Below are positions 1,057-64,000 of a DNA stretch of 64,000 nt, piece after piece; position 1 is the stretch's first letter; every line of letters starts with the position of its first letter. Made by a program: the position numbers and the translations under genes. A model generated the notes under the pieces. That model was not told the DNA's origin, did no database searches, and saw only the letters and a list, made by a program, of their open reading frames with translations. This DNA comes from Confluentibacter lentus (GTDB taxonomy: Bacteria; Bacteroidota; Bacteroidia; Flavobacteriales; Flavobacteriaceae): assembly GCF_002806995.1 (NCBI RefSeq), contig NZ_NIHE01000002.1, positions 186,001 to 250,000 of the forward strand, given 5' to 3'.

Positions 1057-1746
1057 ATGACCAAAATAGCAGTTATCATTCCAGCTTATAACGAGGCAGG
1101 CTCCATAGCAAACGTTATTAATGACATTCCTACTACGGTTAAAAACATTATTGTTGTAAATAATAACTCGACAGATGATACTGAAAATAATGCAAAAAAA
1201 GCAGGTGCCATAGTTTTAACCGAAAGTAAAAAAGGCTATGGATACGCTTGTTTAAAAGGAATTGATTATCTTGTAAATCAACAAGAAAAACCTGATGTTG
1301 TTGTGTTTCTTGATGGTGATTACAGTGATTATCCCGAAGAACTAACCAAAATTATAGAGCCTATTTTAAATAATAACATAGATTTTGTTATCGGGGCTAG
1401 AGTTAAGGAATTAAGAGAACAAGGTTCCATGGAACCTCAACAAATTTTCGGAAATTGGTTGGCGACTTTTTTAATGAAGTATATGTTTGGGTCCAAATTC
1501 ACAGATCTTGGTCCGTTTAGAGCTATTAAATATGATGTTTTACTAGGGCTTGATATGCAAGACAAAACATATGGATGGACTGTAGAGATGCAATTAAAGG
1601 TCTTAAAACAAAAATTGAGTTATGCAGAGGTTCCTATAAAATATAGACGCAGAATTGGTGTGTCAAAAGTTTCAGGAACCATAAAAGGTAGTATATTTGC
1701 AGGCATAAAAATACTAAGTTGGATTTTTAAATACAGTTTTAAATAA
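1057..1746 (+). CDS. Family 2 glycosyltransferase, polyprenyl-phosphate sugar transferase type
   Basis: A 229-residue GT-A fold transferase. It opens with IAVIIPAYNEAGSI, has the nucleotide-sugar region NNNSTDDT (36-42), the metal-binding DGD at 86-88 and the FTDLGPFRA motif at 148-156, as in dolichol-phosphate mannosyltransferase and related enzymes. It lacks C-terminal membrane helices, so it is a soluble or peripheral enzyme likely charging a polyprenyl phosphate. Its stop overlaps the next glycosyltransferase start by one base (TAATG), suggesting the two act in one glycan or glycolipid pathway. The sugar cannot be read from sequence. Confidence 0.85.
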   Translation: MTKIAVIIPAYNEAGSIANVINDIPTTVKNIIVVNNNSTDDTENNAKKAGAIVLTESKKGYGYACLKGIDYLVNQQEKPDVVVFLDGDYSDYPEELTKIIEPILNNNIDFVIGARVKELREQGSMEPQQIFGNWLATFLMKYMFGSKFTDLGPFRAIKYDVLLGLDMQDKTYGWTVEMQLKVLKQKLSYAEVPIKYRRRIGVSKVSGTIKGSIFAGIKILSWIFKYSFK

Positions 1747-3236
1747 TGATTGTCGAAACCATAATTATTGTTGTTTACACCATATCGCTTTTGCTTATTT
1801 TCATGTATGCGGTAGCACAATTAAATTTATTATTCAACTACTTAAGATCAAAAAGGAAAAAGACGGATTGTGAGTCTTTTGATTTTTCAAATCCAGATGA
1901 AATCCCATTCATAACCATACAACTTCCTGTTTATAATGAAATGTATGTTATGGAAAGATTGTTGGATAACATTGCTAAAATTGATTATCCCCACGATAAA
2001 TTAGAGATTCAAGTATTGGATGATTCTACCGACGAAACTGTAGAAACAACTCGGAAACACGTTGAAAGTTTAAGCGCAACCGGTTTAGACATCAAACATA
2101 TTACCAGAACCGACAGAAGTGGCTTTAAAGCTGGGGCCTTAAAAGAAGGACTTAAAATTGCCAAAGGTGAGTTTATTGCCATTTTTGATGCCGACTTTCT
2201 TCCTCAAGAAAACTGGTTAAAACGTACCATCCCCTATTTTAAAGACAAAAGCATAGGCGTTGTTCAAACACGTTGGTCACATATCAACAGAGACTATTCC
2301 ATACTTACTAAAATACAAGCATTTGCTTTAGATGCCCATTTCACTTTAGAACAAGTTGGCAGAAATAGTAAAGGGCATTTTATAAATTTCAATGGAACTG
2401 CCGGGGTTTGGAGAAAAACATGTATCATCGATGCTGGAAATTGGGAAGGTGATACGCTTACTGAAGACTTAGACTTAAGCTACAGAGCCCAATTAAAAAA
2501 TTGGAAATTTAAATACTTGGAAGATGTTGAAACGCCTGCTGAATTACCAGTAGTTATTAGCGCCGCAAGATCTCAACAATTTCGATGGAATAAAGGAGGT
2601 GCTGAAAATTTCAAAAAAATGCTCGGCCGCGTTTTGAGAAGTAAAAACATTTCACCAAAAACAAAATTACATGGTGTTCTGCATTTATTAAATAGTACCA
2701 TGTTTTTAAATATTCTTACGGTTGCCATATTAAGTATTCCTATGCTTTATATTAAAAATCAATACGCTCATTTAAAACCCTACTTTTATGTGATGAGCTT
2801 TTTTGTTTTAAGTACAGTGATATTTTTTATATGCTATTGGATTATGTACAAAAGGATACATGGCGCAGGTATAAAAAATTTCATTAGCTACATAGGCATG
2901 TTCTTTGTGTTTTTTACCATTGCTATGGGATTTTCCCTTCATAACTCCATAGCTGTTTTAGAAGGTCATTTTGGTAAAAAGAGTGAATTTGTGCGCACTC
3001 CTAAATTTAATATCAGCTCCATTAAAGACAGTTGGAAAAATAATAAATACATTAAAAAAACAGTATCACTTCACGTTATTTTTGAAGGTTTATTAATGCT
3101 CTATTTTGCTTTTGGTATGTATAGTGCCTTTATTGTAGGTAATCAAGGAGGCGATTTTGGATTGTTCCCATTTCATCTAATGCTATTCTTAGGCTTTGGA
3201 TATGTATTTATCCAATCATTAACCTCTAAAGTCTAA
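1746..3236 (+). CDS. Membrane family 2 glycosyltransferase, cellulose-synthase-like
   Basis: A 496-residue processive-type GT2. There is one N-terminal membrane helix (about 4-28), then the catalytic domain with DDS at 92-94, DAD at 148-150, the TED catalytic base at 239-241 and the QQFRW motif at 277-281. At least four hydrophobic segments follow residue 310. The D, DxD, TED, QxxRW set is diagnostic of the cellulose synthase/glucomannan synthase superfamily in the inner membrane. It overlaps the preceding transferase by one base. Substrate and product are unknown. A strong bidirectional terminator follows directly. Confidence 0.88.
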   Translation: MIVETIIIVVYTISLLLIFMYAVAQLNLLFNYLRSKRKKTDCESFDFSNPDEIPFITIQLPVYNEMYVMERLLDNIAKIDYPHDKLEIQVLDDSTDETVETTRKHVESLSATGLDIKHITRTDRSGFKAGALKEGLKIAKGEFIAIFDADFLPQENWLKRTIPYFKDKSIGVVQTRWSHINRDYSILTKIQAFALDAHFTLEQVGRNSKGHFINFNGTAGVWRKTCIIDAGNWEGDTLTEDLDLSYRAQLKNWKFKYLEDVETPAELPVVISAARSQQFRWNKGGAENFKKMLGRVLRSKNISPKTKLHGVLHLLNSTMFLNILTVAILSIPMLYIKNQYAHLKPYFYVMSFFVLSTVIFFICYWIMYKRIHGAGIKNFISYIGMFFVFFTIAMGFSLHNSIAVLEGHFGKKSEFVRTPKFNISSIKDSWKNNKYIKKTVSLHVIFEGLLMLYFAFGMYSAFIVGNQGGDFGLFPFHLMLFLGFGYVFIQSLTSKV

Positions 3237-3240
3237 CACA

Positions 3241-3283
3241 AAAAAAGCATTCATGGTTTTAATCAAACCATGAATGCTTTTTT
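3241..3283. terminator. Bidirectional rho-independent terminator
   Basis: A perfect 19-bp stem (arms 3241-3259 and 3265-3283, core GCATTCATGGTTT) with a 5-base loop, flanked by A-run and T-run. It lies between the convergent glycosyltransferase operon and the haloperoxidase operon and can stop transcription from both. Confidence 0.92.
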
Positions 3284-3304
3284 ATGATTCTTCAATAGTA
3301 GTTT

Positions 3305-4447
3305 TTAATGAACCACATTAAAATCTACAGCTTTATTTTTATTGTTTCTAAATCTGTAAGTCAGGTTGAAATTTATAAGATAATCAGCGAAAGCTGCATC
3401 TCCTTGTGTAAAAACCCCCGTTTCTGCCGTGCGTTTTTTATCTAAAAAACTTTGGGTTCTATTTCTTTCCAGAGCAATAGGAACATTAAGATTTAACGAT
3501 AAATTGTTTGTGTTGTAACTTATTCCTGGGTCAACAGAAATAGCATACCCTGGTCTTCTATACCCCTCGCTACTTCCTATTAAATCTGATGACGGAACAC
3601 CTTCAATTCTTCCTCCTAAATAAAAATTAACACCTTTAATATTTGGTGAATATAAAGTTCCCAATTGTACTGCAAATTGATCGGGTACGGAAAACTCGTT
3701 AGTTGTACTTCCTCTGGCTAATACTCCATTAGTCACTTCAGGATTAAATAAATAGAAGAGTGATGTTGTAAGGGTAAAACTGTGTGACAGCATATAATAC
3801 CCTTGAAAATCAAGATTAAACCCAACACCACCGTCTCCCAATTGAATGGATTGATCTACCACACTTTCAATATCTTGGTCTCTATTAGGTCCTTGGTTAT
3901 AAAATGTATCCATATAACTATAATCCCCAGTAGGCAATTTTATACCAGCACCTAGAGCAAAATTATAACCCCTTTTATCATGTTTAAATAGCCAATAGCC
4001 TAAACCTAATCTCATGTCCGATAATCCACTTGAACGTGTAATATGTCTTTCACCTAGACCGTTTGGAGGATTCCCGCCATGTTCATACATAGAAGACCTA
4101 ACATGAGATGCAAAAGGAAGCAATACTGTAGCATATAATCTATCTGAAATGGCATAATTAAACACAATATCCACAAAATAAGAATCGTTTATAACTTGCG
4201 TGCCATTTTCAACCCTATGAGTTTCTTCATGAGTTCCTCTAAAATGTCTGAAAGACTGAAAATATCTAAAGTTTGTTCCCACAGAAAAATCACCTTTCAT
4301 GATCATTCCACCCTGTTCCATAAAACCATTACATGAAGAAAAACCACGAATAGCCACACAGCCTTGGGCATTTACCTTGTATTTTCCAAATAGGAAAAAA
4401 AGAATTCCTATTATATATAAGTTTTTATATAGTTTAAATGTTTTCAA
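3305..4447 (-). CDS. Predicted outer-membrane beta-barrel of the haloperoxidase operon
   Basis: A 380-residue secreted protein. It has a signal peptide of about 27 residues ending in VNAQ, then many alternating-hydrophobicity strands ending in YLINFNLTYRFRN, typical of an outer-membrane barrel. Conserved-looking features are paired cysteines just after the signal peptide (GCVAIRGFSSCNG). The start codon is TTG at 4447-4445: there is no in-frame ATG before an upstream stop, and the signal peptide begins there. It is the last gene of a three-gene operon, starting 4 bases after the DoxX-like gene. Annotated relatives are usually called transporter; I infer a porin or export role linked to the haloperoxidase, without direct proof. 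Confidence 0.65.
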   Translation of the reverse strand: MKTFKLYKNLYIIGILFFLFGKYKVNAQGCVAIRGFSSCNGFMEQGGMIMKGDFSVGTNFRYFQSFRHFRGTHEETHRVENGTQVINDSYFVDIVFNYAISDRLYATVLLPFASHVRSSMYEHGGNPPNGLGERHITRSSGLSDMRLGLGYWLFKHDKRGYNFALGAGIKLPTGDYSYMDTFYNQGPNRDQDIESVVDQSIQLGDGGVGFNLDFQGYYMLSHSFTLTTSLFYLFNPEVTNGVLARGSTTNEFSVPDQFAVQLGTLYSPNIKGVNFYLGGRIEGVPSSDLIGSSEGYRRPGYAISVDPGISYNTNNLSLNLNVPIALERNRTQSFLDKKRTAETGVFTQGDAAFADYLINFNLTYRFRNNKNKAVDFNVVH

Positions 4448-4451
4448 AGTT

Positions 4452-4898
4452 TTAGATGTTTTTATTTAATGGAATGTTTTTAGTGTAATCATTAATAGGG
4501 TAAACAAAAAGCAAGGCACTTATAATCACAATATTTTTAATGATATATTGCCCAACCAATGTTAGTACAAAAGGTGCTTTGGCAAAAGACACTTCAGGAA
4601 AAAACAATACAGGAATAAAAGTTAATATTAGATGAATGATGGCGACACTAACTACTGTTTTAAGCTGAAAATTACATATCAAACACAATCCAATACCAAC
4701 TTCGATAACAGCAAGCATTACAATGCTGATGCTCTCGGGAATCAATCCAAAAGTCAAAAAAGTTATGGTATGTTTTGCAAGACCATCAGCTGGACTTAAT
4801 TCTGGGAAAAATTTCAATAATCCAAACCACAGATATATAATACCGATACTAATAGCAAGCAATCTGCCCCTATTAATGCTTAATAAAATACGTGCCAT
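4452..4898 (-). CDS. DoxX-like small integral membrane protein
   Basis: A 148-residue protein with about four hydrophobic helices (roughly 13-30, 43-75, 80-100, 115-132). The first helix carries the GIIYLWFGLLKF pattern seen in DoxX/DUF417-type proteins, followed by the LSPADGLAKHT loop. The family includes subunits or partners of redox enzymes, but the function of this branch is not established. It lies 9 bases downstream of the haloperoxidase gene and 4 bases upstream of the barrel gene, so it belongs to that operon. Confidence 0.7.
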   Translation of the reverse strand: MARILLSINRGRLLAISIGIIYLWFGLLKFFPELSPADGLAKHTITFLTFGLIPESISIVMLAVIEVGIGLCLICNFQLKTVVSVAIIHLILTFIPVLFFPEVSFAKAPFVLTLVGQYIIKNIVIISALLFVYPINDYTKNIPLNKNI

Positions 4899-4907
4899 TT
4901 TAATATC

Positions 4908-6428
4908 CTATTGGTTTAATTGGGCTAGATTTTCATTTTTTTCGCCTATTAGCTCAAGATATTTTTTATAATTATTACGGGCCACTTTTCTACCTAATTC
5001 CAAACCTTCAATATTATCAGCTTGGATATGATATCCACCCATCACTCTAGATATTCCAGCCATTTCAGCAGTTTTGGTAAATGTTGGAAATTTAAGGGTA
5101 ATTGGGGCACCCAAATTATTTGGTTCGGTTAAGGCTCCTGGGATTAATTCTACTTCAGACCCAAACGTATCATCGCCTTTAAAAAGTTTTAATGCTTCAG
5201 CACATCCACCACTTATAGTACTGTGACCAGATACATAACTTGGAAATGGTGGGCATAAAAACACATCTGGAGAATATGGACGCCAATCTTGACCTTTCAT
5301 TGTTCCTATGCCTTTATCTGGACCTCCCCAACCTGTAATATCTTCATCTTTATAATAATGATGCACTAAAGCATAAGGTCTTGCAGAGTCATAAAACATT
5401 TTAGCATCCCAACACGCTATAAAACCATCCATCGCTACTGATTCTACCAAAAAATACATTTTAACATCATCATCAATGGTATGATTATCCCTTTTTGAAA
5501 CTTCTTGCGAAAATTTAAGCCAGTGCCCAGCTTGTTGAACAGACTTTGGTCCATCTCGCATAAATTCAACCAATGCTTTATTTTCAGGGGTTAAATTTGA
5601 CTGCAATTCAACAACCTCTTTTACTTCTAATGCCATTTGTTTTGAACCAACCATTGGTGGGGGACCTGGTCGAAATTGATCGGACGTATTTAATAAAAGA
5701 GGTTTTACTTTTTGCCAAAATGGGGTTAAACACCCAGGAGCAAATTTTCCACCTTTACCATCAGAAAAATATTTTGGTTGCCATCTATCAATATCAACAT
5801 TGGTATCAGCATCATTTACAGGTTTATAGCCCGTATAATCAGAATAAGGTTTGCCATTAGAACCTTCCATGTCACCTATTTGATTAGAGCCGTCGTGCAT
5901 TCTTGCCTCAATAACCGTTTTTGCAGCCAAATTTCCAATCCCTTCTGGAGTATTGGGGTCTAAAGATTTATTATTGGGGTCTAAGCCTAGTTCTTTCATT
6001 TTATTAATGAACATCAAGCTGTCTGAATAATAGTATTCTCTTAAGGCTCTGTAAGCAGCATAGCTAACGGCAATTTCTTTATTTTTTAGAGTTCTTTCGT
6101 TTTCAGGACGACGTTCAACATTCTTTAAATATAGCGGTGTAGCTTTATCATCAAATCGTGTCCAAGCATCAAAAATAGACGTAAATATTAAGCCTAAAAA
6201 CCTAGATGAAACGGTAGGCCTTGGTTTAAACATTTCGGTATCATTCGCAGTACCTTCAATGACCATAAATGCCCATTGATACGCAATATTATCTTCTCCT
6301 TTTGGTTCGCCATGAATAGCTTTTTGATTTTCTACAAGAGATAAAGATTCTTTTTGTGGAGTTTTACAGCTTATAACTGCCAATAAGAAAACAGCAGTAA
6401 TAACTGAAAATGTTAGTTTTAATTTCAT
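4908..6428 (-). CDS. Vanadium-dependent haloperoxidase, predicted lipoprotein
   Basis: A 506-residue PAP2-superfamily enzyme. The N-terminus is a lipoprotein signal with lipidation at Cys21 (LAVISC). The vanadate pocket is complete: Lys343 and Arg350 in KMFYDSARP, the PFPSYVSGHSTISGG segment with Ser400-Gly401-His402 (acid-base His), and Arg461 plus His467 in SRVMGGYHIQADN, where the His ligates vanadium. It should oxidise halide with hydrogen peroxide to hypohalous acid at or outside the envelope. Halide preference (iodide, bromide, chloride) cannot be decided by eye. It is the first gene of an operon with a DoxX-like protein and an outer-membrane barrel, and is divergent from a LytTR response regulator. 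Confidence 0.9.
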   Translation of the reverse strand: MKLKLTFSVITAVFLLAVISCKTPQKESLSLVENQKAIHGEPKGEDNIAYQWAFMVIEGTANDTEMFKPRPTVSSRFLGLIFTSIFDAWTRFDDKATPLYLKNVERRPENERTLKNKEIAVSYAAYRALREYYYSDSLMFINKMKELGLDPNNKSLDPNTPEGIGNLAAKTVIEARMHDGSNQIGDMEGSNGKPYSDYTGYKPVNDADTNVDIDRWQPKYFSDGKGGKFAPGCLTPFWQKVKPLLLNTSDQFRPGPPPMVGSKQMALEVKEVVELQSNLTPENKALVEFMRDGPKSVQQAGHWLKFSQEVSKRDNHTIDDDVKMYFLVESVAMDGFIACWDAKMFYDSARPYALVHHYYKDEDITGWGGPDKGIGTMKGQDWRPYSPDVFLCPPFPSYVSGHSTISGGCAEALKLFKGDDTFGSEVELIPGALTEPNNLGAPITLKFPTFTKTAEMAGISRVMGGYHIQADNIEGLELGRKVARNNYKKYLELIGEKNENLAQLNQ

Positions 6429-7218: not shown

Positions 7219-9826
7219 TTTGAATTTCAACCCGAATACAGCACAAATAGTAAGCAAACGCATTGCGGATATTTTCTAAATCTTCAGTTGATACCGCCTT
7301 AACTTTTTTCGGTAAAGCATCAGAAAGCGACAGTAACTTTAAATTATTAATGTGGGCTATCAGTTTGTGCAAAATAGCTTCCCATTCATGTTCATCCTTG
7401 CTTTTAAAAACCGCATCCATTCGTTTTATATAGGTTTCAAACTCTTCTTCAAGAAGTTTCAATACTTTAATGATTTTAGTGGAATTATGATCATAATTAC
7501 TGTAAATACTTGAAAAGTCGGGAGCCGAATATTCATGGCTTGCTAATAATTTAAATACGGTATCTTTTAAGTAATCAATGTTAAATGGTTTTTGAAAGTA
7601 TAAGGTACTTATTGCGGACATCATTTCTGGCTCGGTAGCTGAAACCAATAAAATAGGGCATGTTACTTTTTTAGTTGAAATCCAATCAAGAAGCTTAGGC
7701 GATAGATTTTCGTTTTCGAGCATTAAATCACTGATGATAATATCTGGTCTATTTTGATTTATACTTTCAATAACCAAATGCCATTTATTTAGTTGAATTA
7801 GCTGGATATTATCCTCATCAAAAATGTATGATATTAATTCTAAAGTCGATAAGTCGTCCTCAACATGGAGCATCTTATATTGCTTATTTAGTTTTGGATA
7901 CACTATAGGTTTATCAACTACTTTTGTTTCTGTTTTTAAAGCAGAAATTACAGGAACTTTAACGCAGAATTCTGAGCCCTTTCCTTTTTCTGATACCGCT
8001 TTTAAAGTACCACCAAACAAGATAGTTAACTGTTTCACTATCGATAAGCCTAATCCATAACTACCGTATCTTCCAGACAAATCATCTTTTTCCCTAAAAA
8101 AACGATCGTTTATTTTTTCAATATTCTCAGGGAGTATACCGATGCCCGTATCTGTTACTTTTATTTCCAACAGTGGCGCTTTTTCATCAATCAATTTGGC
8201 AGAAAGACGAATCGTGCCTTCTTGGGTATATTTAATGGCATTTACTACCAAGTTTATAACAATTTGCGACAATCTTAAAGGGTCTGTTAAAAAAGATTGT
8301 CTCTTAAGCTTTTCATCAATATTCAAAGTAAATGTTAATCCTTTCTGAATGGCTTCATATTGATAAGTTGCGTAAATATCTTTTAAAAGATCCTCAATAT
8401 TGGTCGGTTCGTGGGTAATATGCACTTTACCTTCAGTAAGTTTTTTATGGTCTAATACATCATAAACCAATCCAGCCAAACTATTTGAAGTTCTTTCCAA
8501 GGTATTTATAATAGGTAATTGTGCATCCGTGGGAGCGTTTTTATGCAATAATTTGGTGAGTCCTAAAATAGCATTCAGCGGTGTACGCATTTCATGACTC
8601 ATGTTTTGCAAAAATTCATCACGTTCGTTTCTCGCTTCCTTTTCTTTTTTAAGTGATGTTTGCAAGGCATGAACTTGCGAGTCTATCTTAGTTTTCATTT
8701 TATAAAAAGTCAATGCCAAAGCACCAATTTCATCTTTTCTATTTATAGGAAGTTCTATGGAATTATCAATTCCTTTATCATAATTGCTAATGGCTTCTGT
8801 GATTTTATTGATTTTTTTAGAGAAGAATCTAACAAAAAACCATGAAATAAGAATTGAAAGCAAACAAACACCAAGCAATGTTTGTATACTATTTTTGCGA
8901 ACAAGGGATGCACTTTCCATAAGCACATTATCTTCAATTGTAGAAACCAAATACAATGTTCTTAAACCTTTAAAATGGGTTAATTCTTTAATATAACTTA
9001 GCAACTCACCTTTAGTTTTTTCGTTTAATTGGCTAAACCCATCATTTAAAGCAAGGTTTGGATTTAAATTAAAATCGTCATAAAAATTAAAGTTGGTTTT
9101 TGTTTGAACTCCAAATTGTTGTGTTTTTACGGGTGAATATAAATATTGTCCGTTGTGGTCTATTAAGTAAAGCTTAAATTCGTTACCAGATATATTATTT
9201 AATGTTGCAAACAGTTTTGTTAAATCTACATTGATGATAACAATTCCTATAACGGCATTTTTGGTATCAAAAATGGGACTTGCCGCTCTTAAAGTGGGTA
9301 TGTAAGGCTCGCTAATAAGACCATATTCTTCATTCAAATTTATTTCAGAGAAATAAAAATCCCCTTTGTTCATTTTTATGGCTTCCTTAAAATACTCTTG
9401 GCTACCCTTTTCCTGAAGGTTATTGGAGATAATAACTTGCTGATTTATTTTATCCAATCGGATGATTTCCCTGCCGTTATTTTCACTACCAATCAATCGA
9501 ATTTGAAAATATGACGCTTTATTTTTGAGTGTGACCTCAAACAGCTCATGAACATCATCGGTTGTCTTATTGGAATTTTCAGCGATGTAGTTTTTAAGAG
9601 TTGGACTATTGGATATTACGGCAATATCGTTGGAAACCTCATTCAACAAGGCATAAAACGATTGCTCTGCCAATTCGGATGTGTGCATAATACGCTCCTT
9701 AGAATAGTCAACAATAACCCTAGAAGCATTCGTGAAAACCAAATATCCAGAAAGTAATATGGAAAATATAATTAACCCCGTAAAAAATAAGGCGAAACGG
9801 GTCACTATGGAATGCCTGATTTTCAT
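7202..9826 (-). CDS. Hybrid sensor histidine kinase with Cache-like sensor and C-terminal HPt-like domain
   Basis: An 874-residue membrane kinase. TM1 is at about 11-32 and TM2 about 314-335, enclosing a 280-residue extracytoplasmic Cache-like sensor. Then come a HAMP-like linker (335-390), HisKA with phospho-His411 in NMSHEMRTPLN, and an HATPase with Asn529 in NLVVNAIKYT, DTGIG (558-562) and YGLGLS (590-595). A receiver domain follows (about 651-760) with Asp700 and Lys746. The tail contains LHKLIAHI, where His820 sits at the HPt position although the usual glycine is missing, so the HPt call is tentative. It converges on the LytTR gene with a 17-base overlap. A His-Asp-His-Asp phosphorelay to that regulator is plausible but unproven. 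Confidence 0.9.
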   Translation of the reverse strand: MKIRHSIVTRFALFFTGLIIFSILLSGYLVFTNASRVIVDYSKERIMHTSELAEQSFYALLNEVSNDIAVISNSPTLKNYIAENSNKTTDDVHELFEVTLKNKASYFQIRLIGSENNGREIIRLDKINQQVIISNNLQEKGSQEYFKEAIKMNKGDFYFSEINLNEEYGLISEPYIPTLRAASPIFDTKNAVIGIVIINVDLTKLFATLNNISGNEFKLYLIDHNGQYLYSPVKTQQFGVQTKTNFNFYDDFNLNPNLALNDGFSQLNEKTKGELLSYIKELTHFKGLRTLYLVSTIEDNVLMESASLVRKNSIQTLLGVCLLSILISWFFVRFFSKKINKITEAISNYDKGIDNSIELPINRKDEIGALALTFYKMKTKIDSQVHALQTSLKKEKEARNERDEFLQNMSHEMRTPLNAILGLTKLLHKNAPTDAQLPIINTLERTSNSLAGLVYDVLDHKKLTEGKVHITHEPTNIEDLLKDIYATYQYEAIQKGLTFTLNIDEKLKRQSFLTDPLRLSQIVINLVVNAIKYTQEGTIRLSAKLIDEKAPLLEIKVTDTGIGILPENIEKINDRFFREKDDLSGRYGSYGLGLSIVKQLTILFGGTLKAVSEKGKGSEFCVKVPVISALKTETKVVDKPIVYPKLNKQYKMLHVEDDLSTLELISYIFDEDNIQLIQLNKWHLVIESINQNRPDIIISDLMLENENLSPKLLDWISTKKVTCPILLVSATEPEMMSAISTLYFQKPFNIDYLKDTVFKLLASHEYSAPDFSSIYSNYDHNSTKIIKVLKLLEEEFETYIKRMDAVFKSKDEHEWEAILHKLIAHINNLKLLSLSDALPKKVKAVSTEDLENIRNAFAYYLCCIRVEIQINLKD

Positions 9827-33290: not shown

Positions 33291-34502
33291 TTAGCGTGAT
33301 ATATTTTGAGCGGCAAGGTAAGCACTCGTCCATGCATGTTGAAAATTAAAACCTCCCGTAACGGCATCAATATTTAATACTTCGCCAGCAAAATACAAAT
33401 TGGGAATAAGTTTACTTTCAAAGGTTTTAAAATTAACTTCTTTCAGTTCAACACCGCCTGCCGTTACAAACTCTTCTTTAAATGTGCTTTTGCCTTCTAC
33501 AGTAAAAATGGCTTGCGTTAATTGAGATGCTAACATGTCCAATTGTTCTTTATTCAAATCTGCCCAACGGGTTTCTTGGTTCATTTTAGAAGCCAAAATC
33601 AAGTTCTGCCAAAGACGTTTAGGGACATCAAATTGCGTGGATTTATAAACTGTTTTTTTAGCCAAGGTTTGTTTTAATTCCTTTAAAACATCCAAAACAT
33701 CTTCAAAAGATTTATTTATAAAATTGATTTTAATATCAAATTTATAATTCCGTTTTGCCAATTCCAAAGCACCAAAAGCCGATAATTTTAAAATCGCTGG
33801 TGCACTCATGCCCCAATGTGTTATTAATAATGGCCCGCTACTTTCTAAATGACTATCTACAACATTTACCAAAACATTATTAACCACTACTCCTGGGATG
33901 TCTTGAATACGTTCATCTTTAATGTTGAAAGTGAATAATGATGGTACTGGATTGGAAATGGAATGCCCTAAATCTTCCAAAAGCTTCCATATTTTTGGAT
34001 TGCTTCCAGTGGCTATCAATACTTTTTTTGATGAAAAAATACCTTCTGTTGTTTCAATTTCAAATGAATCCGCTTTTTTTTGAATGGATTTTACGGAATG
34101 ATTAATTAATACCTCAACCTTATGTTTATTGGCTTCCTTTAAAAAACAATCAATAATCGTTTGTGAAGAATCGGTTGTGGGAAACATGCGTCCGTCGGCT
34201 TCGATTTTTAAAGGAACGCCTCGTTTTTCGAACCAGTCTATGGTATCGCCCGTCATGAATTGATGAAACGGTCCTAGTAATTCTTTTTCGCCTCTGGGAT
34301 AATTCAATACCAATTCTTGTGGAATAAATTCTGAATGTGTCACGTTGCACCTGCCACCACCAGACACTTTTACTTTAGTCAACACCTCTTTTCCGCGCTC
34401 TAAAATAGCCACTTTTAGCTTTGGGTTTTGTTCTGCTACATTAATGGCAGCAAAAAAACCGGCAGCACCTCCGCCAATGACAAGCACGTCTTTTTCAATC
34501 AT
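33291..34502 (-). CDS. BaiN/HI0933-family FAD-dependent oxidoreductase
   Basis: A 403-residue flavoprotein. The dinucleotide-binding loop is VIGGGAAGFFAA (8-19), then VKVSGGGRCNVTHSE, VLIATGSNPKIWKLLEDLGH, THWGMSAPAILKLSAFGA and the C-terminal GEVLNIDAVTGGFNFQHAWT. Members include aminoacetone oxidase-like and bile-acid reductase-like proteins; the physiological substrate of this one is unknown. It overlaps the phosphodiesterase gene by 4 bases. Confidence 0.88.
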   Translation of the reverse strand: MIEKDVLVIGGGAAGFFAAINVAEQNPKLKVAILERGKEVLTKVKVSGGGRCNVTHSEFIPQELVLNYPRGEKELLGPFHQFMTGDTIDWFEKRGVPLKIEADGRMFPTTDSSQTIIDCFLKEANKHKVEVLINHSVKSIQKKADSFEIETTEGIFSSKKVLIATGSNPKIWKLLEDLGHSISNPVPSLFTFNIKDERIQDIPGVVVNNVLVNVVDSHLESSGPLLITHWGMSAPAILKLSAFGALELAKRNYKFDIKINFINKSFEDVLDVLKELKQTLAKKTVYKSTQFDVPKRLWQNLILASKMNQETRWADLNKEQLDMLASQLTQAIFTVEGKSTFKEEFVTAGGVELKEVNFKTFESKLIPNLYFAGEVLNIDAVTGGFNFQHAWTSAYLAAQNISR

Positions 34503-35173
34503 AACCTATCGGGAAAATCGGAAATAATACCATCAACCCCATACGATTTGATGCGTTTTATGGGCTTCAAGTTGTTCACCGTCCATGTAAACACTTTAAA
34601 TTGTTCCTTTAAATTGGCAACAATCTCTTCGGTTAACATGGTATAATCTGGGTGTATGGAATAGGCATTTATGGTTTTGGCGAAATTAACCGCTTCTTCC
34701 AGATTGGTATCGGTAAGCACACCTAATTGGATTTTTTTATTGACGCTATAAACCGTTTGTAATAAATTGTATTGAAAACTGGACACAATGATATTGCTAT
34801 AATCCCACCCTTTTTTCTCAACATAAAAATCGATGAGTCTGCTTGCTTCTTTGGGTGTGTCTTGACCTTTTAACTCGATGTTCAACAAGCATTTATTGTT
34901 TACAAACGCCATCACTTCCGATAAGGTGGGGATTTGGCAATGCCCCTTCACTTCTACTTTTTTCAACTGTTTTAAAGTGAATTTTGAAACTTCACCAGAG
35001 GTATTGGTCATTCTATCTAAGGTAAAATCATGAAAAACCACCAACTCACCAGACGCACATCGGTGCACATCAATCTCAATACCATCCACTCCTAATTGCA
35101 ATGCCTTTTTAATGGATTCTAAGGTATTCTCTGATAGATGCCCTTTGGCGCCGCGATGTCCTATTTTTTTCAT
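34499..35173 (-). CDS. Glycerophosphodiester phosphodiesterase
   Basis: A 224-residue GDPD. Using ATG at 35173 the protein starts MKKIGHRGAKGHLSENT with catalytic residues His6, Glu33 and Asp35 (GIEIDVH) and His48 (VFHD); the end is GVDGIISDFPDRL. It hydrolyses glycerophosphodiesters to glycerol-3-phosphate and an alcohol in the cytoplasm (no signal peptide). An in-frame ATG 20 codons upstream (35233) gives an extension that does not fit the family. It overlaps the oxidoreductase by 4 bases. Confidence 0.9.
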   Translation of the reverse strand: MKKIGHRGAKGHLSENTLESIKKALQLGVDGIEIDVHRCASGELVVFHDFTLDRMTNTSGEVSKFTLKQLKKVEVKGHCQIPTLSEVMAFVNNKCLLNIELKGQDTPKEASRLIDFYVEKKGWDYSNIIVSSFQYNLLQTVYSVNKKIQLGVLTDTNLEEAVNFAKTINAYSIHPDYTMLTEEIVANLKEQFKVFTWTVNNLKPIKRIKSYGVDGIISDFPDRL

Positions 35174-35299
35174 GTTGTAAAAATACGAATATCGCCAGAG
35201 GTTTTGAGCAGCATTTTTTAATACGCACTGCATTATTTTTAATTTGTTTAAAAATATGCTAGATTTGATGTAATAGTAAACGTATGATAAAGAACAAAA

Positions 35300-35351
35300 A
35301 TTCCTATATTATCTTCAAAAAGATCTAGGAATAAAGAGGGATTTATTCCTA
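35300..35351. promoter_or_regulatory. Overlapping alternative hairpins before the accessory island
   Basis: TAGGAATAAA (35326-35335) pairs perfectly with TTTATTCCTA (35342-35351) over a 6-base loop. The same TAGGAAT can instead pair with ATTCCTA at 35300-35306. The two structures exclude each other, as in an attenuator or a structured element boundary. It lies 40 bases before the first island gene. Confidence 0.45.
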
Positions 35352-35359
35352 ATATAATT

Positions 35360-35381
35360 AGTTGTATGTCATTTGAAAAAC
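35360..35381. repeat. Cassette-like boundary repeat, copy 1
   Basis: AGTTGTATGTCATTTGAAAA, then AC. It is nearly the same as 35948-35969 (AGTTGCGATGCATTTGAAAA, then AC). It is located 9 bases before the VOC start, downstream of a hairpin. Confidence 0.55.
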
Positions 35382-35390
35382 GAAATATAG

Positions 35391-35852
35391 ATGATTAAAG
35401 GACTTTATGAAACACATTTATTTGTAGAAAATCTAGAACGTTCTATTGAGTTTTATTCAAAAAAAATGAAATTAGAGCAATGTCATTATGAAGATGAAAG
35501 ACGAGCTGCATTTTTTTGGATTGGAAAACCTAAACAGTTTATGTTAGGATTATGGGAAAAACCAAAAAAGGAAATTGACATTAGACATTTTGCGTTTGAA
35601 TGCGAACCTGATTGGGTTTTAAATGAGTCTGTCGAATATTTAAAAAAGCGGAATATTAAGTGTCGTAATTTTCTTAATGATGGAACTGAAAAACCAATGG
35701 TTTTTGCTTGGATGCCAGCAATATCAATATATTTTGAAGACCCAGATGGACATTCACTCGAATACATTGGAATTTTAGAAGGAAAATCCAAACCTGAAAA
35801 CGGAATTGTTTCTTATGAGAAATGGAAAGAATTAGAAAAAAATGACAAATAA
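35391..35852 (+). CDS. VOC/glyoxalase-superfamily protein of the accessory island
   Basis: A 153-residue protein: GLYETHLFVENLERSIEFYS, then RRAAFFWIGKPKQFMLGLWE, IDIRHFAFECEPDW, and the end AISIYFEDPDGHSLEYIGIL. The pattern fits metal-dependent VOC enzymes such as fosfomycin-resistance or glyoxalase-type proteins; the His and Glu ligands are present but the substrate is unknown. It is first of seven small plus-strand genes in an otherwise minus-strand region, flanked by two copies of a boundary repeat. Confidence 0.8.
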   Translation: MIKGLYETHLFVENLERSIEFYSKKMKLEQCHYEDERRAAFFWIGKPKQFMLGLWEKPKKEIDIRHFAFECEPDWVLNESVEYLKKRNIKCRNFLNDGTEKPMVFAWMPAISIYFEDPDGHSLEYIGILEGKSKPENGIVSYEKWKELEKNDK

Positions 35853-35906
35853 AAAACGCCATACAACAAGCCGTATTAAATTAATTGCTAGTTCAAGCTT
35901 ACTTAC

Positions 35907-35926
35907 GAAAATCCTCGTGGATTTTC
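35907..35926. repeat. Hairpin in the spacer between island genes
   Basis: GAAAATCC-TCGT-GGATTTTC, an 8-bp perfect stem. It is centred in a 127-bp spacer with TTGCTAGTTCAAGCTTACTT on the left and TATCCAGTTGGTACATA on the right, and is followed by boundary repeat copy 2. It resembles a spacer type I recall from other Flavobacteriaceae accessory islands. Confidence 0.5.
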
Positions 35927-35947
35927 TATCCAGTTGGTACATATAAA

Positions 35948-35969
35948 AGTTGCGATGCATTTGAAAAAC
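35948..35969. repeat. Cassette-like boundary repeat, copy 2
   Basis: AGTTGCGATGCATTTGAAAA, then AC. Nearly identical to 35360-35381 and in the same position relative to a hairpin and the next start codon, giving a direct-repeat unit of about 588 bases around the VOC gene. Confidence 0.55.
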
Positions 35970-35979
35970 CCTCTATGAA

Positions 35980-36489
35980 TTGAAAAAAGTAATTATCATA
36001 GGAAGTTCAAGAAACAATGGCGAAACTAAAAAAGTTGTTGCAGAATTTATACGGATATCCAATTGGGACTTAATTGACTTGTCTGATTTTAAAATTTCTC
36101 ATTTTGATTATGAACATTTAAATCGAAATGATGACTTCATCAATTTATTAAAAAGAATAACTGAAGATTACGACGTATTGATTTTTGCAACGCCAGTTTA
36201 TTGGTATTCAATGAGTGGCATCATGAAAGTTTTTTTCGATAGGATAACAGATTTACTACGTATTGAAAAAGATATTGGTCGAAAATTACGAAATAAACAC
36301 ATGGCCGTTATTAGTTGCTCGAATGGCGACAACTTAGGAGATAATTTTTGGATTCCATTCAAAAAATCAGCAGAGTATTTAGGCTTGAATTATATAACTG
36401 ATTTGCATACTTATGAAGGTAAAAATGAAAACGATAAGATTGCCGAATTTAAACGAATTATAGAATTAAAAACAGCAACCCATAAATGA
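35980..36489 (+). CDS. NADPH-dependent FMN reductase-like flavodoxin-fold protein
   Basis: A 169-residue flavodoxin-fold protein: VIIIGSSRNNGETKKVV at the N-terminus is the FMN phosphate loop, and IFATPVYWYSMSGIMKVFFD near residue 67 the FMN ring loop. It probably reduces quinones or other acceptors with NAD(P)H. The only possible start is TTG at 35980, since an in-frame stop is 5 codons before it and the fold begins at once. It overlaps the GNAT gene by 4 bases. Confidence 0.82.
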   Translation: MKKVIIIGSSRNNGETKKVVAEFIRISNWDLIDLSDFKISHFDYEHLNRNDDFINLLKRITEDYDVLIFATPVYWYSMSGIMKVFFDRITDLLRIEKDIGRKLRNKHMAVISCSNGDNLGDNFWIPFKKSAEYLGLNYITDLHTYEGKNENDKIAEFKRIIELKTATHK

Positions 36490-37067
36490 CCTTAGAAAAA
36501 TTTTTCTCAACTGAATTGATTCTTGAAAACGAGGTAATTTTATTGCGCCCATTATCTATTAATGATATTGACAAAATAGAAAAAATAAGTTATCATAAAG
36601 AATTAGGAGAATTTGGAGCAAGAGTAAAAAACAGAAATGATTTAACTGATTATTTTAACTTCTGTCTAAATTCAAAAAAAGAAAAAGAACTATACCCATT
36701 AATAATCATAAGCAAGGAAACTAACAATCCAATAGGAATAACCATGTTTGGAAATATTAGTTTTCAGAATAGAAGATTGGAAATAGGATGGACATGGATA
36801 GGTGAAAAATTTCAAGGAACCGGTATTAATGCCATTTGCAAAGGGCTTCTTCTAGATTATTGTTTTGATAATTTAAACCTAAGAAGGGTAGAATTTAAAA
36901 TAGATATAAATAACCTCAAATCCCAAAAAGCAGTTGAAAAGATTGGAGCCATTAAAGAAGGACTTTTAAGAAATTATAGTATTCAATCTTACGGAGAAAG
37001 TGAAGGAGCTTACGTTTACAGTATTCTTAAAGAAGAATGGAAAAAATTAGATGATACAAATACATGA
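36486..37067 (+). CDS. GNAT acetyltransferase (RimJ/RimL type)
   Basis: A 193-residue acetyltransferase: VILLRPLSINDIDKIEKISY at the start, IGITMFGNISFQNRRLEIGW in the middle, then GEKFQGTGINAICKGLLLDY holding the acetyl-CoA pyrophosphate loop, and VEKIGAIKEGLLRNY near the end. The target (protein N-terminus, antibiotic or small amine) is not predictable. It overlaps its two neighbours by 4 bases each, so the three genes form one translational unit. Confidence 0.87.
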   Translation: MTLEKFFSTELILENEVILLRPLSINDIDKIEKISYHKELGEFGARVKNRNDLTDYFNFCLNSKKEKELYPLIIISKETNNPIGITMFGNISFQNRRLEIGWTWIGEKFQGTGINAICKGLLLDYCFDNLNLRRVEFKIDINNLKSQKAVEKIGAIKEGLLRNYSIQSYGESEGAYVYSILKEEWKKLDDTNT

Positions 37068-37408
37068 CCAAATTTAATTTCAACAATAAAAGATTTGCAC
37101 TTATTCAAAACTCCGATAGCGGACAAGTAAACTCAGAAACTGTTTTTGAATACAAACAAGATGGAAATTTAGTGACCGCAGATTATTTTGGCGGAACGAT
37201 TCGATATGGAAAAATTATAGCGGCATTGAAAGACGATGAATTAAATATGCTATATCAATGTTTGACGACAGATAACGAATTGAAAGCAGGAAAAGCAACA
37301 GCTAAAATTTCAGTAACAGACACAGGAAAAATGAAAATGAATTTAAATTGGGAATGGCTGACAAACGGAAATGAAAAAGGGGCATCAGAATACATAGAAA
37401 TTGAATAA
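37064..37408 (+). CDS. Small conserved protein of unknown function
   Basis: A 114-residue strand-rich protein: FNNKRFALIQNSDSGQVNSE, VFEYKQDGNLVTADYFGGTI and MKMNLNWEWLTNGNEKGASE. Relatives carry the database name N-acetylglutamate synthase, but no GNAT or kinase motif is present, so I do not adopt it. The ATG overlaps the stop of the GNAT gene by 4 bases. Confidence 0.75.
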   Translation: MTKFNFNNKRFALIQNSDSGQVNSETVFEYKQDGNLVTADYFGGTIRYGKIIAALKDDELNMLYQCLTTDNELKAGKATAKISVTDTGKMKMNLNWEWLTNGNEKGASEYIEIE

Positions 37409-37445
37409 CCTGAATGAATAATAGTGAGCATAATAAGCTGGAAAA

Positions 37446-37898
37446 ATGGAATTAACAACAGAACTAAAGGAATACATAAACAGAAGTGTTTTATGTTGGC
37501 TTGCCACAGCATCGATCGAAAACGTACCCAATGTCTCACCAAAAGAAATTTTCAATTATTATGGAACTGACAAAATAATTGTCGCAAATATAGCTTCACC
37601 ACAAACTGTTCGAAATATTAAGCACAACGCAAATGTTTGTATTAGCTTTATCGACATACTGGTACAAAAAGGATTTCAAGTAAAAGGAAAAGCTAAAATT
37701 ATTGGCAAAATAGATTCAAGATTTTCCGAAATGGAAAAAATATTGACTACTATGACCGGAGTAAATTTTCCTTTTTCAACTATTACAGAAATTACTATAG
37801 AACGCGTTAAACCAATTATTGCACCTAAATATATTCTCTATCCAGAAACAACAGAAGCTGAACAGATTGAAAATGCGAGAAAAACTTATGGAGTTTAA
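37446..37898 (+). CDS. Pyridoxamine-5'-phosphate-oxidase-family flavin-binding protein
   Basis: A 150-residue split-barrel protein: LCWLATASIENVPNVSPKEI, then IIVANIASPQTVRNIKHNAN and FSEMEKILTTMTGVNFPF. The fold binds FMN or F420 and reduces small molecules; its substrate is unknown. It lies 37 bases after the small unknown gene. Confidence 0.82.
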   Translation: MELTTELKEYINRSVLCWLATASIENVPNVSPKEIFNYYGTDKIIVANIASPQTVRNIKHNANVCISFIDILVQKGFQVKGKAKIIGKIDSRFSEMEKILTTMTGVNFPFSTITEITIERVKPIIAPKYILYPETTEAEQIENARKTYGV

Positions 37899-37918
37899 AA
37901 AAAGTAAATTCAAAGAAT

Positions 37919-38209
37919 ATGATTTTAGAAGTAGCAATATTGAACGTAAAAAAAGGTCAAGAAAAGCAATTTGAATTAGATTTTGCAAAAGCTGGACAAT
38001 ACATTAGCTCTATAAAAGGCTATGTGAATCACTCACTTAAAAAATGTATTGAACAAGACAATCAATATATTCTACTTGCTAATTGGGAAAAACTCGAAGA
38101 TCATACTATTGGATTTAGGCAATCTTCACAGTATTTAGGATGGAAAAATTTATTACATCATTACTACGACCCTTTTCCTTTAGTTGAACATTATGAAACC
38201 ATAATTTAA
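37919..38209 (+). CDS. Antibiotic biosynthesis monooxygenase (ABM) domain protein
   Basis: A 96-residue ferredoxin-like ABM protein: MILEVAILNVKKGQEKQFEL, then ISSIKGYVNHSLKKCIEQDN, YILLANWEKLEDHTIGFRQS and WKNLLHHYYDPFPLVEHYET. ABM proteins act on quinones or polycyclics, or are stress proteins. It follows the PPOX-type gene by 20 bases. Confidence 0.82.
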   Translation: MILEVAILNVKKGQEKQFELDFAKAGQYISSIKGYVNHSLKKCIEQDNQYILLANWEKLEDHTIGFRQSSQYLGWKNLLHHYYDPFPLVEHYETII

Positions 38210-38232
38210 AAATTAATAAACTATCTTACCTC

Positions 38233-38256
38233 TGATACTATCAAATGATACTATCA
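38233..38256. promoter_or_regulatory. Two tandem operator-like near-palindromes before the DinB gene
   Basis: TGATACTATCA occurs at 38233-38243 and again at 38246-38256, period 13. Each copy is TGATA and TATCA around a central C. They are 34 bases upstream of the DinB-family start, a typical place for a repressor-binding pair. Confidence 0.45.
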
Positions 38257-38289
38257 TCAAAAATATCTTAGTTTTTAAACCACACAAAA

Positions 38290-38733
38290 ATGAAACCATT
38301 TTTTAATGAATTATTTGAATACAACCATCACTCCAACCAAAAATTATGGACTGTTTTTAATGAACATTCAGATAAAACTTCTGAAAAATCGATTATACTA
38401 TTTAGCCACATGTTGAATGCCCACCATATTTGGAATAGCAGAATTAACCAAATTCAAAATAGGTATGGCGTTTGGGACAAACATCCTATTAAAAACTGTT
38501 TGGAAATTGATAAAACTAACTACGATAACTCATTGCTTATACTTGACAAATTTGACTTAAACACTATCATCAATTATAAAACTAGCAACGGTCTCGCTTT
38601 TAGCAACAGTATTCGCGACACGCTTTTTCATGTTATCAATCATTCTACTTATCATAGAGGACAAATCGCTACTGAATTTAAATCAAATGGAATTGATCCT
38701 TTGGTCACAGATTACATATTTTATAAACGATGA
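38290..38733 (+). CDS. DinB-family (YfiT-like) metal-binding protein
   Basis: A 147-residue four-helix-bundle protein: FFNELFEYNHHSNQKLWTVF at the start, then LFSHMLNAHHIWNSRINQIQ and FHVINHSTYHRGQIATEFKS. The three histidines of the DinB metal site (one in SHMLNAHH, two in HSTYHRG) are present. Family members include thiol transferases and stress-induced proteins; this one's reaction is unknown. Last gene of the accessory island. Confidence 0.88.
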   Translation: MKPFFNELFEYNHHSNQKLWTVFNEHSDKTSEKSIILFSHMLNAHHIWNSRINQIQNRYGVWDKHPIKNCLEIDKTNYDNSLLILDKFDLNTIINYKTSNGLAFSNSIRDTLFHVINHSTYHRGQIATEFKSNGIDPLVTDYIFYKR

Positions 38734-38780
38734 TTATCAAATTGGTTTACTGAAGCAGCAAAATATTATTCCTTTTTAAA

Positions 38781-41700
38781 CTAAAAATTCAATCCAAAAC
38801 CAAACGAAAACCGGAGGCCTTCTGCGCCTTGAAACACATTAAAAGTACCGGATAGCGTCTGTGCTGCCGTTACCCAAAAACCGCCACCATAATCGTTGTG
38901 CCATCTTTTTGAAGTATCGTTTTCCAACCAAACCCTACCAATATCTACACCACCAAAAACACCAAACTGCAAAGGCAAAACGCTAGTTTTGAAAGATGGG
39001 AAACTGTAACGTAAGTCGGCACTACCAGTTAGCGCATTTTTACCTGTAAAACGTTCGGTTCTATACCCTCTCAACCCATTATTACCGCCAATATTGGCTG
39101 CTTGGTAAAAGATGAGATTGTCACCAAACCTAAGCTGACCTCTCACATCTGTTTTAAGAACTAACTTTTTGTTTGTGGTCAACGCGTTATAAAAATCCAA
39201 TTCGGAATTCACAAAACCATAGGTGTTTTTGGTTTCCTTAAACTCTGTTTTTCCACCGACATTTAAAAGGAATGTCATCCCACGAGCCGGATTTATGGCA
39301 TTATCAAAACTTTTATAATGGTATTGTGCTTGAAGTCCACCAAAAAAACGTCTTGTATAAAAATCATTGTTGACAAGAGGCATAAAACTGGAAATATAAC
39401 GATCTGGAGTATCTTCAATCTCAATCCCTTCAAAAAGGGCTTTAAAACCATAATCACTTCCGTAACTTCCTTTTTTAATCATGCCTAAATTCAGTGCATA
39501 AATACCTGTTTTCACTCGGTTATAATCCAATCCGAAATTATCATCATCATTAGCGGTTTCATTTCCAAAGCCAAAGAAATTATTGGTAAAGTTTTCGGAT
39601 GTAAATCGTCCAGAAACTTGCAAATTCCAATCTTGATGGATGTTGGCAAACTCACCTTCATAATTAAGTTCATAACCATTCGTAGCAAAAAAATACCCAC
39701 CTTTAAAATGGTGTTGTTGGGAAAACGGATTCCGTTGAAAGCCTTTTACGGTATGCACATAAGAAGCACCTAATTTAAAACCATCATCGGGGTTAAATCC
39801 GAAACTGGGCGTGATGGTGCCTGTTTTGGTGATGTTTTTTTGAAAATCAAAGAGATTTAAATTATAAACATCGGTGAATTTTATGCTGGCGCCTTGATTT
39901 TTTTCGATGGTATTTTTTTTGGATTTATGGTCATAAACCTTAATGCGTTTACCATTTTCAATGATATAAGTATCTTCTCCTTGCCCACCAATAAGGCGCG
40001 TATAAATCATATTATTTGCTTCACCTTCAACCTTAAAAACATCCTTATCATCCAAGCCATACAACCAAATTTCTTTAGTAATCTCTCTATTAAAAGTCTT
40101 ATCAACTAACACATCGGCTTTTTCACCCGATTTAATACGTGATATTTTTATATGTGTTTCTTTATTGCTTGTTCTAGTAATTTCAATGTAATCATCTTTA
40201 TCTGTTCCCATTAAAATGACCAGTTCATTCAAATGTTTGTAATATCTGGTGGCAATATCCAAAAGATTACTTCGTCTTGCTTTTAGATTTGCTTTAATGG
40301 CATTCAAGGTTTCGTCCTGAACTTCTTTTGGGACTTTTGAAAATGCCTCAACAATCACAGCATCAGTGATATGTTCTTGTAAAAACAGTGCTTGTTTTAA
40401 CCAATCAGATTCATCGGCTTTTTGGATTAATATTCTATCTAATTTAATCCCGGCACTATTCATCCAGTTGATATCCTTTAATTCTGAATCATAGACTTGC
40501 AACTGTTTTGTTGAACCAGATATAATTTTCATGACATCCAATAAAGCACCATCAAAATTTGAAAACGCTTGATCTCTATCTCGCGGTATGGGTCTAAATA
40601 TGTTATCGCCATTCTCCGTTTCAAACTCAGCCCATTTCCACTGGTCTTGATGCCTATCCCAATCGCCCACCAACATATCAAAAAGACGCGCTTTTATAAA
40701 AGCCTGTTCATCTATTTTATATTTCTCATCCTCCTGAACTTTTTTAATGACATCGTAGGTGTTTTTAATATCCTTTGGCGTTTCCAGATTTTGGTCATTA
40801 AACGAAATATCTTCCGGACGTTCTTCAACCATATACAATTCGTCACCGAATTCATCATTATAATTCTCCAAGGCTTTGTGCTTGGGAATGTAAAATAATT
40901 TCGGATTGGTATGCATTATTTTGGCAGCACTTGACAAATCTGGAATTACTGTAAATGCATAAGGATGAGCAGCGGTATAAAAATCGAGAACCAGATTTTC
41001 AACAGCGGTCTTCTCAAATTCATCTACAATATAAGTATCTTTAAACAACACCGTTTGAAGATATTGGGTGGCGCTTTTACGCAGTGCCCTCATGCTTAAT
41101 TCTTTACCATCTTTGGTCTTTAATCGCAAAGAACGTGTTTGGTGGCCTCCTCCTTTTCTAATAACTTCCAAGCCACCATACAATGTATCTAAAGTCGTGA
41201 CTTTAACCTTTATGTTTGTACTATAAACGTCTCTATAATGTCCACCCCAAACCGTTTCAAAAAAACCTGTTTTATCGGTTTCTTCTTTGGCATAAATAGA
41301 TGTTTCAATGTCTTGGGAAAAGCTTTCAGGGAGTTTGGAATAATCAAAAACCTGATTAATTTTTTGCACTTCTTTCTGAAATACCAACTTGGCTTGTCCG
41401 TTTTCCGAAGCAAACATGTTAACCCAGCTGCTTCCGTCTTTGTAAATGACTAACTCAGCAAAACCTTGTTTGCCATAAGAAAACAAGCCATTTTCCCTCA
41501 ATGACACAGCCGATTCTTTAGAACCTGAACCCGATACAATTTGCTTAATCGATTTATTCTCCACGTATTGTAAAGCATGCTCATGTCCAGAAACAAAAAC
41601 AAGATTGTTTTCACCTAATGCCATAGTTTCCAAACGGCTCATCAATTCATGGTAACGCTCATTGTAAAGATCTTGAGGCGAAACACCTCCTTGAGTTCTT

Positions 41701-63905: not shown

Positions 63906-64000
63906 TAAAATTAGTTAAATATACTTGCGTTTAGCTCAGTTCTTTGTTGGGCATAGTATTTTTTATTCCGAAATCCATTCTTCTTTTCTCTTTTCGTGGT

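Follow-up and report, generated by a model that had tools for sequence, protein, structure and literature searches.

In integrons, arrays of small gene cassettes, ParDE cassettes among them, lie in a single direction, are headed by a tyrosine recombinase (IntI) and meet at GTT boundaries. The R box of the cassette site, attC, reads GTTRRRY, and in the usual layout the cassettes lie upstream of a divergent integrase gene; in the inverted integron of Treponema denticola the integrase, which is counted as IntI, and the cassettes run in the same direction. Strand choice in canonical attC is made via extrahelical bases of the R''-L'' arm (PMC2727003), which are recognised by the I2 helix of the integrase, impeding second-strand exchange (PMC7790495). 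The published account of integrase evolution rests on the docking of these bases by I2 and describes the intermediates as missing (PMC7790495). Integrons are reported as rare in Bacteroidetes by the IntegronFinder 2.0 survey, with one complete case, Salinibacter ruber (PMC9024848). Here we examine a 64,000-nucleotide stretch of the Confluentibacter lentus genome (Flavobacteriaceae; contig NZ_NIHE01000002.1, positions 186,001 to 250,000), hereafter the window, in which a gene for a VOC/glyoxalase-fold protein very probably sits in a worn cassette that belongs to a chromosomal, integron-like system shared by the Flavobacteriaceae and their relatives. An earlier note on the window had described its positions 35300-38733 as an island of seven genes, added stepwise at a structured repeat in the manner of integron cassettes lacking the canonical attC consensus. 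The features of the VOC unit are as follows.

35293 to 35360, plus strand: putative attI-like array start without integrase, degenerate; inverted repeat with 10-bp arms at 35326-35351, 9 nt before GTT
35361 to 35948, plus strand: candidate VOC gene cassette of 588 bp, running from its GTT up to the one that follows, own start pairing with own end
35391 to 35852, plus strand: cargo gene for a VOC/glyoxalase-fold protein of 153 aa (Pfam PF00903, 38.9 bits)
35854 to 35951, plus strand: decayed attC-like site belonging to the VOC cassette, with AAC at 35865-35867, a hairpin at 35907-35926 and most of the right half missing
35949 to 35971, plus strand: start of a second cassette unit (GTTGCGATGCATTTGAAAAACC), fitting the cassette-start rule, with its own end lost or unrecognisable

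Both copies of the boundary repeat are where the earlier note placed them, AGTTGTATGTCATTTGAAAAAC at 35360-35381 and AGTTGCGATGCATTTGAAAAAC at 35948-35969, although the string as written there is absent from the genome. The copies are identical at 17 of 22 positions, namely AGTTG and the 12-mer CATTTGAAAAAC, and all five middle bases differ. The decisive observation, missed at the time, is that in the first copy these five bases find pairing partners at the opposite end of the unit which that copy opens. Under the family rule given below, the unit start GTTGTATGTCATTT scores 10 of 11 against its own end AAACGCCATACAAC, the best of 84 AACs: the GTT at 35361 is followed by GTATGTCATTT and the AAC at 35865 preceded by AAACGCCATAC, of which 6 of 7 variable positions pair, then A stands opposite C, then three pairs follow. 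Shuffled starts score at least 9 within 600 nt in 45 of 20,000 trials, and two further AACs in the whole window reach 9. The window repeat count is weak by itself: AGTTGNNNNNCATTTGAAAAAC has two exact matches in the window, the two boundaries alone, and with 3 mismatches allowed shuffles average 1.05 matches, 29 of 100 giving two or more. Beyond the window, a search of the whole genome with a 23-mer at up to 3 mismatches gave 23 matches, where the reversed control gave 4, and blastn with 35853-35980 found 17 places including itself in four of the five genomes of the genus (G000-G003, where G000 is the genome of the window and G001-G004 are the others compared), some of the matched contigs consisting of nothing except arrays. 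A hairpin does precede each boundary copy, at 35326-35351 and 35907-35926, the first probably being an attI repeat and the second an attC core. An Rfam search of 34500-39500 returned no match at E up to 1.

The intact arrays comprise units of about 0.4-2.5 kb in a single direction, each ending in an attC-like site of ~125 nt, and one array cassette encodes a ParDE toxin-antitoxin pair. In seven arrays, 36 of 40 cassettes show 4 nt or more of pairing between own start and own end beyond GTT/AAC, a level reached with the next cassette in 5 of 40, and the mean own-end pairing is reached by none of 10,000 permutations. Complete genomes gave the same picture (122 of 160 cassettes versus 7 of 160 with the next cassette, units below 60 nt or above 4000 nt being excluded) and supplied the family rule, in which 71-90% of cassettes pair at positions 1-7, A nearly always stands opposite C at position 8, 71-85% pair at positions 9-11, and pairing beyond position 11 is at background. 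Comparison of 548 cassettes yielded 60 pairs that are at least 80% identical, 31 of them matching within 3 nt at both ends and 21 of these between different loci. Such pairs are 80-99.8% identical over their full length, while their upstream and downstream neighbours match at 0.30, which is background. Examples are a 1164-nt cassette of Psychroserpens mesophilus and G178 (99.4%) and a 619-nt cassette of Winogradskyella ouciana and Polaribacter marinus (95.2%). From these comparisons cassettes appear to be transferred precisely, end to end, as exact units.

Like integron cassettes, whose starts and ends also pair, the flavobacterial ones end in a site whose bottom strand is predicted from sequence to form a hairpin with an R arm, an unpaired spacer, an L arm and a variable end. 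Over 36 sites, pairing holds in 96.9% of cells and double changes number 68, where shuffles give 19.8. The 144 distinct sites among 150 further matches, which were not used in building the model although they were aligned by it, reach 99.0% and have 330 double changes, where shuffles give 84.7. Sliding the partners by 1-3 columns lowers pairing to 32-52%. Bottom-strand pairs in the 144 sites include 355 G.T and 5 A.C, and since bottom-strand G.T would be mismatches on the top strand, it is the bottom strand that is kept foldable, as in attC, which suggests that this is the folding strand. In place of the GTTRRRY box, the R arm spans ~14 positions, 7 of them variable. The unpaired spacer has 5-6 against 3 nt. 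No extrahelical base was seen on the R''-L'' arm in any of the 144 sites, as aligned to a bulge-free model, and three fixed G.T pairs stand in their place; the other arm carries one extra base in 14 of 144. The AACG at the R' box is a feature shared with most attC (PMC2727003) and is kept in 36 of 36 sites. The window site folded singly gives a DNA fold z of 0.00, the structure showing only in intact members of the family.

The best integron-integrase-like gene of G000, at the end of contig C31, encodes a 373-aa protein (FI). Its relatives in G001 and G002 (394 aa) sit behind conserved sigma/anti-sigma genes, and in G001 the first cassette, with a matching own end, begins 33 nt behind the integrase stop codon. 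Among 30 single-contig genomes (29 with sites and one without), 23 have FI above 200 bits, 32 genes in total; one 182-bit fragment (G065) and several matches of 148-154 bits fall between FI and Xer, below this cut-off. Behind the 32 genes, within at most 20 kb, there are 314 sites, and the 300 listed all have the orientation in which cassettes and FI run the same way, as in the inverted integron of T. denticola and unlike the usual divergent layout; a model-free pattern count gave 200 sites downstream on the FI strand, 0 on the opposite strand and 0 upstream. In 15 of 29 loci a distance of 11-113 bp separates the end of FI from the start of the first cassette (score at least 9 of 11 with its own end). 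Unlike that of integrons, the flavobacterial attI follows the integrase gene at its 3' end and is often a near-perfect 22-nt palindrome: in 10 of 16 sites, two of these 16 having scores of 7, palindrome arms of 11-13 bp with at most one mismatch end 3-7 nt before GTT, and at most 3 of 300 shuffles are as good.

FI is itself a distinct tyrosine recombinase. The catalytic R, H, R and Y are present in 25 of 25 FI rows, with K in 24 and R in one. Between the catalytic R and the R of HxLRH lie 92-93 residues in FI (25 of 25), 97-99 in Xer (14 of 14) and 134 in IntI (18 of 18). The IntI-specific additional domain near patch III (I2), regarded as essential in known integrons, is absent in 25 of 25, and FI has ~80 extra N-terminal residues. 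NCBIfam TIGR02249 scores 178-201 bits on three FI proteins, with a cut-off of 265. FI, Xer and IntI are apart in a tree of 58 rows, with FI outside the IntI rows and weak support of 73-74% for the FI and Xer branches; this tree includes a wrongly extracted ORF (L337) that forces two changes for IntI there and was excluded from the spacing count, and L224 (171 aa) and L349 (792 aa) were excluded beforehand. Over residues 94-375, a predicted FI structure (pLDDT 83, pTM 0.59) resembles archaeal Xer, XerA, IntI4 and XerH among the matches listed, a comparison that barely tests the N-terminal 80 residues. The nearest solved relatives are archaeal XerA and Xer-like proteins, which share the short R-HxLRH spacing; unlike XerA, XerC and XerD, FI has the extra N-terminal part and heads cassette arrays, and it may form a separate group, with the weak tree support given above.

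Judged from the genomes compared, an integron-like cassette system is well supported, and FI working on folded single strands is the best reading of it. FI, a tyrosine recombinase, would act at the attI directly behind its own gene, where circular cassettes would be inserted at GTT via a folded attC whose bottom strand forms the hairpin. A circular cassette would join its own start (GTT and ~7 bases) to its own end (~7 bases and AAC), restoring the paired R arm. The array structure, self-pairing ends, bottom-strand fold, co-directional FI at the array head and precise cassette transfer can be read from the sequences, and we infer from them that FI performs the recombination on a single-stranded substrate and that there are circular cassettes. 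In the window, the VOC cassette would have entered an integrase-less copy of attI between the GDPD and DinB genes, after which the attC of the VOC cassette and the next cassette decayed; the other island genes would be ordinary neighbours or the remnant of one multi-gene cassette.

Several observations weigh against this reading. The evidence for cassette recombination is comparative throughout. In the window, the attC-like site scores 31.6 bits with model R1 and is poorly placed, most intact sites reaching 90-135 bits. The attI-like stretch, aligned with the attI copy at the same locus in G001 and the 3' ends of the G001 and G002 integrase genes, has a mean column identity of 61%, a modest resemblance, and its hairpin folds; its inverted repeat alone is not significant (38 of 300 shuffles equal the 8-bp arm in 32 nt that was tested). 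Of the 32 FI genes, 7 contain one or two stop codons, the regions behind those of L252 and L281 have no site among the 300 matches listed, and up to 18 kb upstream of the 32 genes there are 4 sites, all beside the truncated FI of L281. Six of the 29 single-contig genomes with sites (G063, G075, G145, G146, G174 and G201) have no FI above 200 bits, and would hold either orphan arrays or arrays served by another recombinase. Finally, plasmid and phage records, searched with one query site each, gave no match.

The seven plus-strand ORFs of the island (35391-38733), with a minus-strand gene on either side, were correctly delimited in the earlier note, and its labels agree with Pfam for six of them (Glyoxalase/VOC, FMN_red, GNAT, PNPOx, ABM and DinB). 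Those following the VOC gene, and one further feature at the end of the window, are as follows.

35980 to 36489, plus strand: NADPH-dependent FMN reductase-like protein, TTG start at 35980 as first noted (Pfam PF03358, 67.4 bits)
36486 to 37067, plus strand: GNAT acetyltransferase (Pfam PF13302, 69.8 bits)
37064 to 37408, plus strand: protein of 114 aa with no Pfam family, the small unknown gene of the earlier note
37446 to 37898, plus strand: PNPOx-like (PPOX) protein (Pfam), C-terminal part also seen in G004
37919 to 38209, plus strand: ABM-domain protein (Pfam), common to G004
38290 to 38733, plus strand: DinB-family protein (Pfam and comparison with sister genomes), fixed neighbour of the locus
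63935 to 64000, minus strand: tail of a second, separate two-cassette array, continuing past the window on G000 contig C12 (L327; about 249.9-251.3 kb)

The stretch between the GDPD and DinB genes is a hot spot in these genomes. In G001 an attI copy adjoins GDPD at a contig end and ordinary cassettes run up to DinB on a separate contig; G002 has one cassette start and an unrelated 300-aa gene (BRCT-like by eye) before DinB; G004 has PPOX, ABM and DinB; and in G003 (L325, read over 1100-4500) GDPD is present with no adjoining cassettes or DinB. The contigs of the sister genomes break inside repeats, which limits an empty-site comparison of the whole array. Sister genomes that always hold all seven genes together, with no further boundary copies, had been named as the pattern that would count against a cassette origin; the locus instead varies and related sites are abundant. 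The second array on C12, of which the window holds the tail only, is headed by an orphan attI copy and has two cassettes and no integrase, and attI copies without integrase are present in both G001 and G000.

Cassette-like acquisition at a structured repeat thus stands, whereas the stepwise gain of all seven genes does not. Only the VOC gene has a cassette start and its own end. The boundary after it, GTTGCGATGCATTT, opens a unit without a detectable end (no pairing partner found, best score 6 of 11), and no attC was found between the last six island genes. DinB is at the locus in G000, G001, G002 and G004, and PPOX and ABM are shared with G004. A different possibility, which we consider unlikely although the strongest of those competing, is that the whole island, or all of it except DinB, came in on one or two cassettes of several genes each and that the attC sites of these have since decayed. 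The cassette start at 35949 opens the FMN-reductase unit, two-gene cassettes are known here (ParDE), and the gaps between genes after 35980 are short, all of which would fit; against this, GCATCGCAAC, sought downstream of that start, and an end matching GTTGCGATGC were not found, and G001 and G002 have DinB without these genes.

As to the system at large, an ordinary IntI-type integron, or an attC cluster without integrase, with diverged sites is improbable. Full IntI above the curated cut-off does occur in 105 of 395 Bacteroidota genomes outside the window's family, in G264 (L356) IntI and an R1-type site, about 1 kb apart, show the canonical divergent layout, and the AACG of the R' box is shared; however, none of the 108 genomes with an IntI-search match belongs to the window's family, FI scores below the IntI cut-off, lacks the IntI insert and lies outside the IntI rows, the R''-L'' arm is free of extrahelical bases, and FI and array are co-directional. 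Because both the insert and the extrahelical bases are absent, we did not file the FI system as a member of the integrons. We lean slightly towards regarding it as an integron of a second kind and a resident of most Flavobacteriaceae genera, in which single-stranded cassette recombination would work with strand choice by fixed G.T wobbles, no I2 helix and no extrahelical bases; it may be a surviving pre-I2 state, an independent invention or a loss.

It is less probable still, and by our estimate very improbable, that true cassettes are moved by chromosomal XerC/XerD with FI as a bystander. XerC/XerD-like matches are found in 30 of 30 single-contig genomes and sites occur without FI in six, but FI is present in 23 of the 30 and heads arrays, with the first cassette start no more than 113 bp away in 15 of 29 loci, and in one lineage the 3' end of FI has been copied together with attI. 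That the sites are mere transcription terminators or dispersed palindromes, with arrays formed by ordinary recombination between them, we reject as hardly credible, for although they are strong hairpins at gene 3' ends and sequences of such kind undergo homologous recombination, a terminator explains neither the pairing of a start with its own end and not its neighbour's, nor the fixed orientation behind one recombinase that gives the arrays their polarity, nor cassette identity that stops at the unit ends.

Model R1 matches 171 of 199 genomes (170 of 198 genera) of the window's family at E up to 0.001, in a sample of about one genome per genus in which at most 17 candidates were scored per genome, making per-genome site counts lower bounds; phylum-wide, at E up to 1e-4, matches were obtained in 59 of 395 genomes. 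Among the matches listed, the exact pattern occurs in Winogradskyella, Polaribacter, Olleya, Lacinutrix, Psychroserpens, Tenacibaculum, Maribacter, Formosa and one Saprospiraceae assembly. One large genus of the window's family (g127, perhaps Flavobacterium) is mostly without attC-like sites. FI is not confined to this family, since locus L363 (G307, another family of the same class) has an FI gene (380.7 bits) with co-directional sites. Canonical IntI in 105 of 395 Bacteroidota genomes outside the window's family is itself more than the surveys consulted suggest.

We found no published description of the flavobacterial cassette system in the openly licensed literature, and no paper in openly licensed PubMed Central literature that shares the terms integron and Winogradskyella; this gene-capture system is apparently undescribed. 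It places integron-like arrays in most genera of one family, against their surveyed rarity in Bacteroidetes, and through such arrays marine Flavobacteria would do much of their gene exchange, as one of its main routes. I2 and the extrahelical bases, the two partners of one contact, are absent together, which makes the account of integrase evolution directly testable, and the covariance model from this analysis can detect such arrays.

Another type of cassette site, AAC..GGTAGCCGTTGCACAAG ... ACAAGTGTTG, occurs in L049 at 5400-5660, 8530-8790 and 9430-9700, with ends that seem to pair likewise. Insertion sequences also target the flavobacterial sites. IS110-family elements, such as the one at L266:9233-10230 (transposase with Pfam Transposase_20 and DEDD_Tnp_IS110), end exactly after the AAC of attC-like sites. 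They parallel the IS1111-attC group (Tetu and Holmes, 2008; Post and Hall, 2009; both as cited in PMC11187229), whose members likewise insert at one attC end, and differ from it in having flavobacterial sites as targets. The shared element end AAAGAACTGAG is also present in L247, L253, L260, L117, L157, L164, L180, L263 and L327, and some loci seem to retain only this end, as a scar.

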